Virus record (IMG/VR): IMGVR_UViG_3300028840_002513
Span: 1-46,302 of that record
Direction: 5' to 3' (one strand)
Source: a virus
Length of the DNA: 46,302 bases
The notes beneath the pieces were generated by a model. The model had not been told where the DNA came from. It made no database searches and worked only from the letters and a program-made list of their open reading frames with translations. The number at the start of each line of letters is the position of its first letter. Position 1 is the first letter of the stretch. This document shows positions 18,789 through 24,674 of the stretch, piece by piece. The translations under genes were made by a program, and so were the position numbers.

Positions 18789-19391
18789 TTACTTGATCAA
18801 ATTTTCAGTAAACCATATATCGTCCTCCAAAGTAAAATGTCTAAACCATAAAAACAAATCTTCACCTAAATCTTTAGGGTTTTTACAAGTATCTTCTCCG
18901 ATATGTTGAATATATGTAACTTTATTCCAAATCCACACATCATTTAATGTTACTATGGGATAATCACCAAAATCTAATGAACTAATCCAGACCAATTTAA
19001 ATGATTTATTTTTATATAGAGTTGGATTATGTTTTTTATAATCATTCAATAAATAAGTGAAATCTATATATTGATGTATATCTTCACAACTAACATCTTT
19101 ATGAATGGTATAAGTAATTCCATCTATGAAATTTAAAATATCTTCCAACATTACATCATATCTTGAAATATATAAATATATCTTTTTATTTAGGTATCTT
19201 TCCCTGATTGATTTTATTAAATAGTAGGTTTGTATTGGGAAATCCATTGGCTCACCACCTGTTAAAATAATTTCATCATACTTTTTAAGACCTTCAAAAT
19301 CTATAGTGTCCAAAGTATTATAAAAATTATTGGCACAGTATGAGCAATTCCTTTTACACTTCTTTGTTATTAATATTCTTGTCTTATTCAT
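18789..19391 (-). CDS. Radical SAM enzyme of unknown specificity
   Basis: About 200 residues from ATG 19391, with GAGGAA about 11 bases upstream; an ATG at 19409 lacks a site and overlaps more of the neighbour. C12-x3-C16-x2-C19 (KKCKRNCSYCANN) binds the 4Fe-4S cluster, and ILTGGEPMDFP (about 43-53) is the GGEP SAM motif. The rest is a short TIM-barrel-like sequence without a recognisable SPASM or auxiliary Cys domain. Candidates include a QueE-like, activase-like or peptide-modifying enzyme; none can be chosen from sequence. It overlaps a peptidase-like gene and is followed by small Cys-rich proteins. Confidence 0.85.
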   Translation of the reverse strand: MNKTRILITKKCKRNCSYCANNFYNTLDTIDFEGLKKYDEIILTGGEPMDFPIQTYYLIKSIRERYLNKKIYLYISRYDVMLEDILNFIDGITYTIHKDVSCEDIHQYIDFTYLLNDYKKHNPTLYKNKSFKLVWISSLDFGDYPIVTLNDVWIWNKVTYIQHIGEDTCKNPKDLGEDLFLWFRHFTLEDDIWFTENLIK

Positions 19392-20484
19392 AGACCATAG
19401 TTTCCTCATTTAATTCAAGCTCTTTTGGTTTATCATTCACATCAAAGAATAATTCTCTACAATCAGGACAAAATAAGACATATATGTTACTTCGGTGTCC
19501 ACAGTTGTAACACTCATAATAATGTTTTTCCTTGCAATAAGTATCTTCCTTACAGGGAACATCTTCTTCACCTAAGTCAATAATATATCCATCTGACTGG
19601 TCAATGTCTCTTTCCAATATTAAATAACAATCAGGGCAGATATACCATTGTTCGTGTCCAACTAATATTAGTCTTGGATGTTTTGTTATAGGTTGTTTGC
19701 AGAACACACAAGTTTGATATGTTGGATTGGTAGAATTATTAACAGTATCACCTTTTAATAAATAGCCAGTCTTATTTTTATTTGTTCGATTATTTAACCA
19801 GTTTCTATCATAATAATCATCATAATGATAATTACCATAATATGAATATTGTTCATCCCTTATAAACTTATCATCTTTATATTTTTTAAAGAATTTTCTA
19901 AACTTATGTATTTGGCCATAAGTAATGGATAAATCTGCTTCACTATTAACACTATGCTCAAACCGAACACCTGTGCCAATATTAGCACAACAAGATTCAG
20001 TTTCCAGAAAGGAAATATCTGAAAAACTTCCCCAGCCCCTGTCTGGATAAAATTCTTTTAATGCATTTTCCCATTCTTTACTTCCACATTGATAGAGCAC
20101 AAAATCACTTCCACGTCTATCAAATTCAACTATCCAGTTATAATTCTTCAGGATATGATGCTGTCCTGTTGAACGACCACTTTCCTCTAAATCTGTTAGC
20201 AATAAATCAGTTTGTAACTCCATAGATAAATTATATGACATCCAACAACCTATTCTATCGTCTATTCCTGAAGCATATAAAGTATTGTCATAAATAGAAT
20301 AAAATTGCGGGGCATGCACAGTATCTAAATGTGCCAATAATAAAATCTTTGAATCTCTGTCAATAAAGATTCGTCTATGCCACAGATTATTGTATTCATA
20401 AACATCTTCCTTAAAATCATTAAAGATAAGATATTTAGCCTCAAACCAATTATAAAGTTTTCTATATTTTTTTCTATTATTCAT
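19384..20484 (-). CDS. M20/M28-like metallopeptidase with C-terminal zinc ribbons
   Basis: A 366-residue protein from ATG 20484 (a TTG at 20493 is also in frame). LLAHLDTVHA (H52, D54), SGIDDRIGCW (D75/D76), TDLEESGRSTG (E100, E101), FDRRGSDFV (D127) and FEHSVNSEADL (H177) follow the metal-ligand order of M20/M28/M42 di-zinc exopeptidases, and the DRRGSD and FSDISFL segments resemble a phage branch of these. From about residue 260, CVFCKQPI...CPDC and CYNCGHRSN...CPDC form two zinc ribbons. Substrate unknown. Overlaps both neighbours, so it is expressed with the radical SAM enzyme. Confidence 0.75.
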   Translation of the reverse strand: MNNRKKYRKLYNWFEAKYLIFNDFKEDVYEYNNLWHRRIFIDRDSKILLLAHLDTVHAPQFYSIYDNTLYASGIDDRIGCWMSYNLSMELQTDLLLTDLEESGRSTGQHHILKNYNWIVEFDRRGSDFVLYQCGSKEWENALKEFYPDRGWGSFSDISFLETESCCANIGTGVRFEHSVNSEADLSITYGQIHKFRKFFKKYKDDKFIRDEQYSYYGNYHYDDYYDRNWLNNRTNKNKTGYLLKGDTVNNSTNPTYQTCVFCKQPITKHPRLILVGHEQWYICPDCYLILERDIDQSDGYIIDLGEEDVPCKEDTYCKEKHYYECYNCGHRSNIYVLFCPDCRELFFDVNDKPKELELNEETMVYE

Positions 20485-22796: not shown

Positions 22797-22859
22797 TTAT
22801 TTCCTTATGTTATATACTACTAAAATAAAAACAATAATTATAGGAATATAAGTTTCCAT
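22797..22859 (-). CDS. Tiny membrane peptide
   Basis: A 20-codon frame (METYIPIIIVFILVVYNIRK) whose ATG overlaps the upstream stop as TGATG. One hydrophobic helix with a basic end. Its last codons (AGGAAATAA) form the ribosome site of the next gene. Same design as the tiny genes at 11675 and 12806. Confidence 0.4.
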   Translation of the reverse strand: METYIPIIIVFILVVYNIRK

Positions 22860-23152
22860 CAACTAACTTTCCTAATCTCATAAATAGTATCTTGAACGAT
22901 TAAAGGTAAATGTTTTTTAGCTGTTTGTAAATCTGGAGCATAAATATAAGTAAACTTTTTACCTTTATATCCGTATCTAACAACGAACGTGTGTGCTTCA
23001 TTAATAAAACCATAGTATTTTAAATTAAATCCCTCAAATTCGAGTCCAAAAGACTCATAAAATTCAAAAACAGCTTTATCAACATCTTTTACTTTTTTGA
23101 AAAAAGATGCTCTCCTGTTTTCAATATCATTTAAACTATTTTCACCGTCCAT
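22859..23152 (-). CDS. Unknown protein behind pseudoknot leader
   Basis: Ninety-seven residues, with AAAGGAAATAAAAAATA before ATG. A helical N-terminal half (VKDVDKAVFEFYESFGLEFE) and a beta-rich half (TFVVRYGYKGKKFTYIYAPD) ending in a helix. No family recognised. It is the first gene after a structured RNA (23203-23271) and may be regulated by it. Confidence 0.6.
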   Translation of the reverse strand: MDGENSLNDIENRRASFFKKVKDVDKAVFEFYESFGLEFEGFNLKYYGFINEAHTFVVRYGYKGKKFTYIYAPDLQTAKKHLPLIVQDTIYEIRKVS

Positions 23153-23194
23153 TATTTTTTATTTCCTTTTATTTTCTATAAGAATATAATTGCG

Positions 23195-23271
23195 AAAAAA
23201 AATAGCGGGATTATTTTACTGAATAAGATGGTTTGTATTATAGACTGAAACCCCGCTAAAACAGTCTATAA
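23195..23271 (-). ncRNA. Candidate H-type pseudoknot followed by U8
   Basis: On the minus-strand RNA a 10-bp hairpin (TTATAGACTG, 23271-23262, with CAGTCTATAA, 23247-23238) has a loop containing TAGCGGG (23258-23252). Twenty-eight bases further on lies its complement CCCGCTA (23209-23203), followed directly by eight U. Stems of 10 and 7 bp with loops of about 3, 4 and 28 nt make a regular H-type pseudoknot; the 7-bp pairing plus U8 could alternatively be an intrinsic terminator. It lies in the 144-nt gap between 23297 and 23152. Confidence 0.6.
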
Positions 23272-23296
23272 GAATAGAAAATATAAAATAGGGTTA

Positions 23297-23524
23297 TTAA
23301 TCTTCAAATTGAAAACCTGTAGATGTTTCTTTCCCAGATTCGACCGCTTTATGTAGTATTTCATTCTCTTTATCAGCAACAGCTAAAATCTGTTCTTTTT
23401 CAGACTCGGTCGAAAAATAGTTACTGTTGAATAGATTACATAGTAACCTATTTTTTTTAATCATTGAATCAACACGTTTTGGAGCAAGTTTTCTGAACTT
23501 TTGATGTTTGTCATTGTCATTCAT
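23297..23524 (-). CDS. First gene of leftward block, unknown
   Basis: Seventy-five residues. Basic N-terminus (KHQKFRKLAPKRVDSMIKKN), then RLLCNLFNSNYFSTESEKEQ and an acidic helical end. The pattern recalls short proteins of plasmids and phages with a basic helix, possibly DNA binding. Being the first gene from the control region it may be an immediate-early regulator; that is inference. The ribosome site is weak (CGAGAAAAA). Confidence 0.55.
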   Translation of the reverse strand: MNDNDKHQKFRKLAPKRVDSMIKKNRLLCNLFNSNYFSTESEKEQILAVADKENEILHKAVESGKETSTGFQFED

Positions 23525-23585
23525 ATTTTTTCTCGTTTCTATCTTATCCAGTATTAAAATGTCAAAGAACCATAAATCTTAAATA

Positions 23586-23658
23586 TATACCTAATATATC
23601 CCGCCCTAAATGATATCCCAAATATAACACCAAATTGTGTTATCCCATATTAGGTATA
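23586..23658. repeat. Nested inverted repeats (possible cruciform/operator)
   Basis: TATACCTAATAT (23586-23597) pairs perfectly with ATATTAGGTATA (23647-23658). Between them ATAACAC (23624-23630) pairs with GTGTTAT (23637-23643). TATCCC occurs three times in the same stretch. It sits about 60 bases upstream of the first leftward gene, so it could be an operator. Confidence 0.7.
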
Positions 23659-24002
23659 ATTAATAAAACCAGATATGACGTTTGATTTGATAAGCCGATT
23701 CATCCCGAATATGTGTGGACTTATAATCATAACCGAGATATCCAGTAGTATTAGGTTTTACAAAGAACCTTCGATGATATCATTCTATCACAAACAGTCT
23801 ATCACGTCAAGAAAAAAATCCTGTTTTGATGAAAATTGTTGTAAGTCCTTATCTCATAAAGACTTATAAGAAAAAAATTTTTAGGTCTAATGAAATGTTA
23901 GGATAGACTAACAAAATGTTGTGATTTCCTAACAAAATTGTCAAAATAATCAGACATTGATATAATCTGATATAAATAGGACTAACTACTAAATAAGATA
24001 AG

Positions 24003-24047
24003 TTCTTGAATAGGATATATTCCTGAATAGGATATATTCTTGAATAG
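24003..24047. repeat. 17-bp tandem repeat, 2.6 copies
   Basis: Units TTCTTGAATAGGATATA (24003-24019), TTCCTGAATAGGATATA (24020-24036) and partial TTCTTGAATAG (24037-24047). Each unit has GAATA and TATTC half-sites. Iteron-like, compatible with binding of an initiator or regulator. Confidence 0.85.
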
Positions 24048-24407
24048 TAGTGAATCCTAACTACAATCTCAAGATATCTCCAGATATATGTGAAAATAGA
24101 TAAGCACATATAACACCATATATTTATATAAAATCTATCCAAATATAGGATATATGTATGCTTATATCATTGACCTGTATGTGAAAATAGGTAATCCTGT
24201 ATATATGAGCAATAAAAAGAATTATTATTGATAGGGGGGGTACACCAAAAATCAGGGGAAATCTCACAATTTACTAACCAATCTAGTGATAAATCGATTT
24301 TAATAAAAACAAGACTATTTTTATCCAATTCTTTTATTTCCTATCTTACCAAATGTAAAGTATTTTTGACAATTTTTAAAAATTTTTAAAGATTTTCCAT
24401 TTTTTAC

Positions 24408-24436
24408 CGAACAAATTTCATTTTCAGTCGTATAAT
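24408..24436 (+). promoter_or_regulatory. Rightward CGAACA promoter 1 of late block
   Basis: CGAACA (24408-24413), 17 bases, TATAAT (24431-24436), with TCG before TATA and AAAAATTTTTAAA tracts upstream. Shares ATTTTTTACCGAACAAA with the site at 17640. A second possible -35, TTGACA at 24366, lies further upstream. Confidence 0.7.
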
Positions 24437-24645
24437 AAAGTAATTATTTATTAATTTATTACTTTAAAGTAAATAATTCAAATTTCCCAAATAATAGGAA
24501 ATTTGGTTATTCTCCTATATTAATATAATCGGACTATGAGACTCTAATCTGTAAAAAAACTTTTTTCCTGAACCTTAGTTATTTCCCTGAAAACAAGGAT
24601 TTACTGAAAAAAGTTAAAAAATTTTAACATTTTTGCAAAAAATAA

Positions 24646-24674
24646 TGAACAAATTTGGATTTCATTCGTATATA
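24646..24674 (+). promoter_or_regulatory. Rightward CGAACA-type promoter 2 of late block
   Basis: TGAACA (24646-24651), 17 bases, TATATA (24669-24674), again with TTCG before TATA and an A/T tract upstream. It is followed within 20 bases by a structured leader and then the first rightward gene. Confidence 0.7.

Follow-up and report, generated by a model that had tools for sequence, protein, structure and literature searches.

In the window, a virus record of 46,302 bases analysed over its whole length, the minus-strand stretch from 23271 to 23195 carries two crossing RNA stems that end in a tract of eight U residues, and this RNA anatomy is real and not a product of chance. The element is best read as a predicted intrinsic terminator that may be pseudoknotted and that follows the first gene of a leftward operon. 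It may act there as a transcription attenuator, a function to which we give a substantial chance that stops somewhat short of probable.

Genomic location and anatomy of the element

Terminase and portal place the window among diverse tailed phages (identity up to about 44%). Leftward genes, including those for a DNA polymerase and an exonuclease, extend from about 23.5 kb down to 6 kb, and may be called "early" by analogy only. The N-terminal part of one minus-strand ORF (18789-19409) shows 33-37% identity to HxsC-like radical SAM maturases from Bacteroides phages. Rightward structural genes begin at about 24.8 kb. The region from 23.5 to 24.8 kb is a long non-coding stretch with promoter-like sites in both directions, the best of which, TTGTCA-17-TATAAT at 23938, is directly followed on the plus strand by tandem 17-nt repeats (ATAGGATATATTCTTGA; 23975-24054), a possible origin or operator. 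A 68-nt repeat (24367-24434 and 24605-24672, plus strand; 71% identical, GAACAAATTT...TTCGTATA) lies upstream of the rightward genes and possibly represents tandem promoters. The candidate promoter for the leftward genes is TTGACG-17-TAGAAT (23782-23810, minus strand; 10/12 matches), with TG before the -10 hexamer; as a class, promoter-like sites occur here at chance frequency, and this promoter and the transcript start are predictions.

The first leftward ORF (gene 1; 23297-23524, minus strand) encodes an N-terminally basic protein of 75 aa that is predicted to be all-helical. Gene 2 (22859-23152, minus strand; 97 aa) is the first gene past the terminator and is preceded by the SD sequence AAAGGAAAU at about 23170-23161. 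No family was found for either product (for gene 2, no match in Pfam, PHROGs or PADLOC at the cut-offs used), and the structure models (pLDDT 69 for gene 1 and 58 for gene 2) were too uncertain for fold searches.

The element is located in the 144-nt gap that separates the two ORFs. The gene-1 stop lies 25 nt 5' of its first stem, and the gene-2 SD about 25 nt 3' of the U tract. Its order on the minus strand is UUAUAGACUG-UUU-UAGCGGG-GUUU-CAGUCUAUAA-28 nt-CCCGCUA-UUUUUUUU. Stem S1 is a hairpin of 10 bp (23238-23271; UUAUAGACUG at 23271-23262 with CAGUCUAUAA at 23247-23238) with a 14-nt loop and an energy of -10.3 kcal/mol when taken alone. Stem S2 (23203-23258) crosses S1 and consists of 7 bp between UAGCGGG (23258-23252) and CCCGCUA (23209-23203). 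Pairing of GUU (23251-23249) with AAU (23212-23210) extends it to 10 bp, in which case it spans 23258-23249 / 23212-23203, and this version is the nested minimum-energy fold (-13.0 kcal/mol). The two crossing stems leave loops feasible for an H-type pseudoknot: L1, UUU (23261-23259, 3 nt); L2, GUUU (23251-23248, 4 nt); and L3 (23237-23210, 28 nt). The U8 tract (23195-23202) follows directly 3' of S2. A sequence-only reading had described S1, S2, U8 and loops of 3, 4 and 28 nt, and all coordinates and lengths proved correct on the minus strand when rechecked; its placement of the element in the early leader did not, as the element lies behind the first ORF of the operon and outside its initial 5' leader.

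On the minus strand, TATTCTTATAGA occurs as an exact 12-nt direct repeat on either side of the pseudoknot (23265-23276 and 23175-23186, 90 nt apart), its upstream copy overlapping the 5' arm of S1. ATAGACTGTTT is seen again in the spacer of the candidate promoter (23802-23792).

Phages and plasmids, searched at the DNA and the protein level with the region and the ORFs on either side, yielded no relative covering the site. The same was true of viral-contig scans with gene 2, a 450-aa gene, exonuclease, terminase (single or aligned), portal and capsid, and one genome scan with terminase gave no match. The nearest relatives (L002, L084, L092, L085 and, at 100% identity, L083) are short contigs that end before the leader, and other phages with about 50% terminase identity do not share the leader or the neighbouring leftward genes.

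Predicted terminator signal and crossing stem compared with chance

S2 provides a GC-rich stem of 7-10 bp with GCGGG that runs directly into U8, as expected of an intrinsic terminator. Its nested loop of 36 nt is not short, and stem energy per length is not high; the d'Aubenton-type score of -1.7 is that of a poor terminator. This weakens the case for a canonical terminator but leaves that for terminator-like action as it was. The element was absent from the list produced by a consensus terminator scan of the window, and cmscan independently placed S2 and U8 on the terminator in the model of the L20 leader (RF00558), far under threshold.

GC-rich long-range stems followed by a T-run (7 bp or more, 5 or more of them GC) were found once in the real window, compared with 0.017 expected per shuffled window. 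T8 runs are depleted in the window (3 observed vs 25.5 expected), so that the position of U8 exactly at the end of S2 is telling. The nested fold of the element was only modestly unusual (z -1.8), because such a fold cannot contain both stems. When scored as a simple H-type pseudoknot, the element reached -21.4, a value that none of 3000 dinucleotide shuffles of the 77 nt equalled (best shuffle, -14.4) and that ranked first in the entire window, level with a single coding site that lies in the polymerase gene. ViennaRNA does not score pseudoknots; these energies carry a flat penalty of 9 kcal/mol, and differences of a few kcal/mol fall within the error of the pseudoknot model. With S2 held fixed, a 10-bp crossing stem such as S1 arose in 1.2% of shuffles (0.012), and in 0.12% (0.0012) when tight loops (at most 8 nt) were demanded. 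Formation of the pseudoknot is plausible, with the chances about evenly divided.

That the element is no more than an intrinsic terminator following gene 1, with the 10-bp S2 and U8 stopping part of transcription and with S1 and a match to the leader (see below) coincidental or secondary, is a possible but rather doubtful reading. S2 with U8 is the strongest single signal, and long-loop stems of the type TAGCGGG...CCCGCTATTTTT occur without a crossing stem in other phages and in bacteria. The low probability of S1 given S2 (p = 0.012-0.0012) speaks against this reading, as does the leader match (0/3000 shuffles). Moreover, 1.88 Mb of phage DNA contained 11 long-loop terminators, of which no other had a strong crossing stem. 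A scan of viral and genome contigs for the S2+U pattern gave 31 places, none in a relative, and a strong crossing stem was absent from all except one in contig L069 (7-bp crossing stem); S1 is thus no automatic companion of such stems.

Complementarity to the gene-1 leader

Upon folding of the transcript from the likely promoter to gene 2, a long-range pairing was noticed; since its tests were made after it had been seen, the p-values are post hoc and are discounted. One strand of the element (23204-23229, minus strand), consisting of AUCUUAUUCAGUA (block A), AAUA and AUCCCGCU (block B), is complementary in two blocks to the leader of gene 1. Block A (23229-23217) lies within L3, and block B (23215-23204) holds most of the 3' arm of S2. 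The partner of block A, A' (UACUGGAUAAGAU; 23541-23553, minus strand), forms 13 bp with one G-U and ends about 7 nt upstream of a weak SD-like GAGA of gene 1. The partner of block B, B' (GGCGGGAU.UAUU; 23593-23605, minus strand), forms 8+4 bp. The 39 nt separating A' and B' fold into a hairpin of their own, and both sites are positioned 300-400 nt upstream of the terminator, beyond the whole of gene 1. A' and B' thus offer the terminator arm a mutually exclusive upstream partner, as in an attenuator, and the 3' arm pairs almost equally well with B' (-15.4) and with the 5' arm of S2 (-15.2).

The summed duplex energy of the two blocks was -31.0 vs -15.8+/-3.9 in shuffles, and no shuffle reached it (0/3000 with the leader shuffled, 0/3000 with the segment shuffled). 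None of 3976 placements of the same geometry elsewhere in the window reached it (best, once, -30.1). Throughout the 46-kb record, block A has no better non-self partner than the gene-1 leader, and gapped alignment of the leader with the reverse complement of the element revealed no broader duplication. For the transcript 23775-23195, the long-range state was 5.9 kcal/mol better than the upstream fold plus pseudoknot. With shuffled leaders the balance favoured the pseudoknot by +4.4+/-1.9 kcal/mol, and none of 400 was as good as the real -5.9. In transcripts cut back past B' or A', starting at 23597 or 23540, the pseudoknot was favoured, by 2.5 and 5.5, respectively. Pair probabilities of the long-range helices were 0.72-1.0 in the nested ensemble; in the leader alone, A' and the 3' part of B' are already partly paired. 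A long-range antiterminator is plausible, if a little short of an even chance, and as no relative covering the locus was found, we infer the switch from the sequence.

The attenuator or terminator that had been proposed earlier gains from S2 with U8, from the position after the first ORF and from an antiterminator-like competitor in the upstream leader. The idea that pseudoknot and terminator are alternatives did not hold: S1 and S2, be it of 7 or 10 bp, have no base in common. The pseudoknot therefore contains the terminator stem, base pairing forces no choice between the two, and S1 does not qualify as an ordinary antiterminator.

The attenuator model builds on the anatomy, the non-chance pairing and the model energies, and termination, antitermination and control would proceed as follows. 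In the terminator state, S2, either built onto S1 to give the H-type pseudoknot or by itself as a hairpin with a long loop, would act with U8 to release RNA polymerase before gene 2. Block A emerges earlier than the 3' arm of S2; its pairing with A' could therefore start early and pass the arm on to B'. Block B would then zip onto B' and capture the arm, so that transcription would run into gene 2 and beyond. The balance might be set by ribosomes at gene 1 that cover A', by a protein or by the RNA start site. A' sits directly 5' of the ribosome site of gene 1, so that ribosomes loading there could mask it and shift the outcome towards termination.

The more specific proposal, in which a terminator stem that is half of a pseudoknot has its 3' arm captured by a bipartite leader site across gene 1 and so controls read-through of the operon, is unlikely; the decision would there fall to gene-1 translation or to the RNA released by termination. 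If true, this long-range pseudoknot attenuator would be a form without earlier description, and the phage would gate its leftward genes via RNA pairing across the first gene, without needing a dedicated protein. The element would also offer a test of pseudoknotted terminators; standard terminator finders, limited to short loops, overlook them.

The lambda tL1 region has the layout promoter, leader, small gene, terminator and rest of the early operon, and by position, after a first small gene, tL1 is like the present element; unlike in lambda, no N-like family could be assigned to gene 1. Known attenuators likewise have an alternative partner for the terminator arm and two exclusive states. They differ from the arrangement proposed here in that its antiterminator strand lies 330-400 nt upstream, on the far side of an entire gene, and its terminator stem belongs to a possible pseudoknot.

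GGTTCTTTG, which we take to be boxA-like, occurs exactly twice in the window (23769-23761 and 23571-23563, minus strand), both times in the 250-nt leader. A nut-type site based on the direct repeat GGTTCTTTG...GGATA was rejected, the repeat alignment not being significant (165/2000). GGAT, considered with a CsrA-type reading in mind, is present six times in the leader and only mildly enriched (99/2000 shuffles reach six).

Other readings and known RNA classes

Functionally, the main competitor of the attenuator is a small RNA directed at the gene-1 leader. The element would be the 3' end of an RNA of about 80 nt or more, pseudoknotted and with a U8 tail, which could arise from its own promoter, by processing or as the terminated leader RNA, and whose exposed 26-nt loop/arm would pair in two blocks with the gene-1 leader, repressing or activating gene 1 in trans. 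This is quite unlikely. L3 would be single-stranded in the pseudoknot and act as seed, and its block A has its best non-self partner in that leader. A weak promoter-like site, TTGAAG-16-TATATT, ends at 23280, but such sites occur only at chance frequency, and the C4 family gave no match. Precedents are RydC (PMC4337610), IsrK and P4 CI RNA (PMC4825925) and C4 RNA (PMC5320573). RydC shares with the element a pseudoknot fold, unpaired segments that are exposed and a tail rich in U at the 3' end (PMC4337610); it is, however, a 5'-seed Hfq sRNA of enterobacteria and unrelated in sequence to the element. P4 CI RNA and IsrK of Gifsy-1 (PMC4825925) and C4 of P1/P7, which pairs via its two loops (PMC5320573), are short phage RNAs with a target in their own operon; they are complementary to sequence near a start site and linked to termination or read-through. 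A terminated RNA or a short element RNA might pair in trans with the gene-1 leader in like manner. Unlike these RNAs, the element would lie 3' of the gene that it targets, and it has a U8 end of its own.

That the pairings are due to chance, or are inverted repeats near gene 1 that serve at the DNA level as recombination or protein-binding sites without an RNA role, is improbable. The AT-rich intergenic DNA, the 12-nt direct repeat flanking the element, the further copy of ATAGACTGTTT in the promoter spacer and the post hoc nature of the tests would fit this view. Against it, the matches are placed where RNA function needs them (U8 beside S2; one arm with two partners), and the gapped alignment showed no broader leader-element duplication.

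The preQ1-I riboswitch has an H-type pseudoknot fold. A metabolite-sensing riboswitch of this fold type, also that of SAM-II (PMC9373788), was an option of the sequence-only reading and is very improbable: searches with Rfam 15 classes (SAM-II, preQ1, fluoride and others) gave nothing at the gathering threshold and nothing at E up to 10 either, there was no ligand clue and no conserved sequence class, the element sits between two genes of unknown function, and leader complementarity explains L3 better. SAM-II, a pseudoknot before a gene that terminates transcription in some members (PMC9373788), shares with the element the position 5' of a gene, but neither sequence nor ligand clue.

No Rfam family fitted the element. 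Three further classes did not match, of which (i) and (iii) were rejected: (i) the L20 leader (RF00558), with 21.5 bits vs a gathering threshold of 58.7, an alignment mainly on the terminator part and a downstream gene without a family, where an L20 leader precedes the L20 operon; (ii) C4 antisense RNA (P1/P7, P4 CI type), without an Rfam match though the element does show bipartite complementarity to the region of a start site; (iii) a type III antitoxin of the ToxI type. Such antitoxin RNAs consist of pseudoknots repeated in tandem ahead of a ToxN-like gene; here the pseudoknot is single, and the 97-aa product of gene 2 had no match in Pfam, PHROGs or PADLOC at the cut-offs.

Several terminator-like arrangements were seen elsewhere. 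Upstream of tRNA-Glu (22343-22285, minus strand), an 11-bp long-loop stem (UAUAUUGGCAG/CUGCUAAUAUA, loop about 37 nt) is directly followed by U6. A hairpin followed by T8 inside gene 1 (23419-23458, plus strand) is terminator-like in antisense and probably arose by chance from Lys codons. In nine viral contigs (L064-L068, L072, L075, L076 and L080), a nearly identical 68-nt stretch (TAGCGGGTATTTC...GATACCCGCTATTTTT) follows the end of a Lys/Ala-rich gene and represents a conserved branched terminator-like RNA. The unrelated viral contig L069 (500-640) has an arrangement like that of the element, GTAAGC..GACCAGC / GCTGGTC..GCTTAC crossing TAGCGGGA / TCCCGCTA with U5, just 5' of a start codon.
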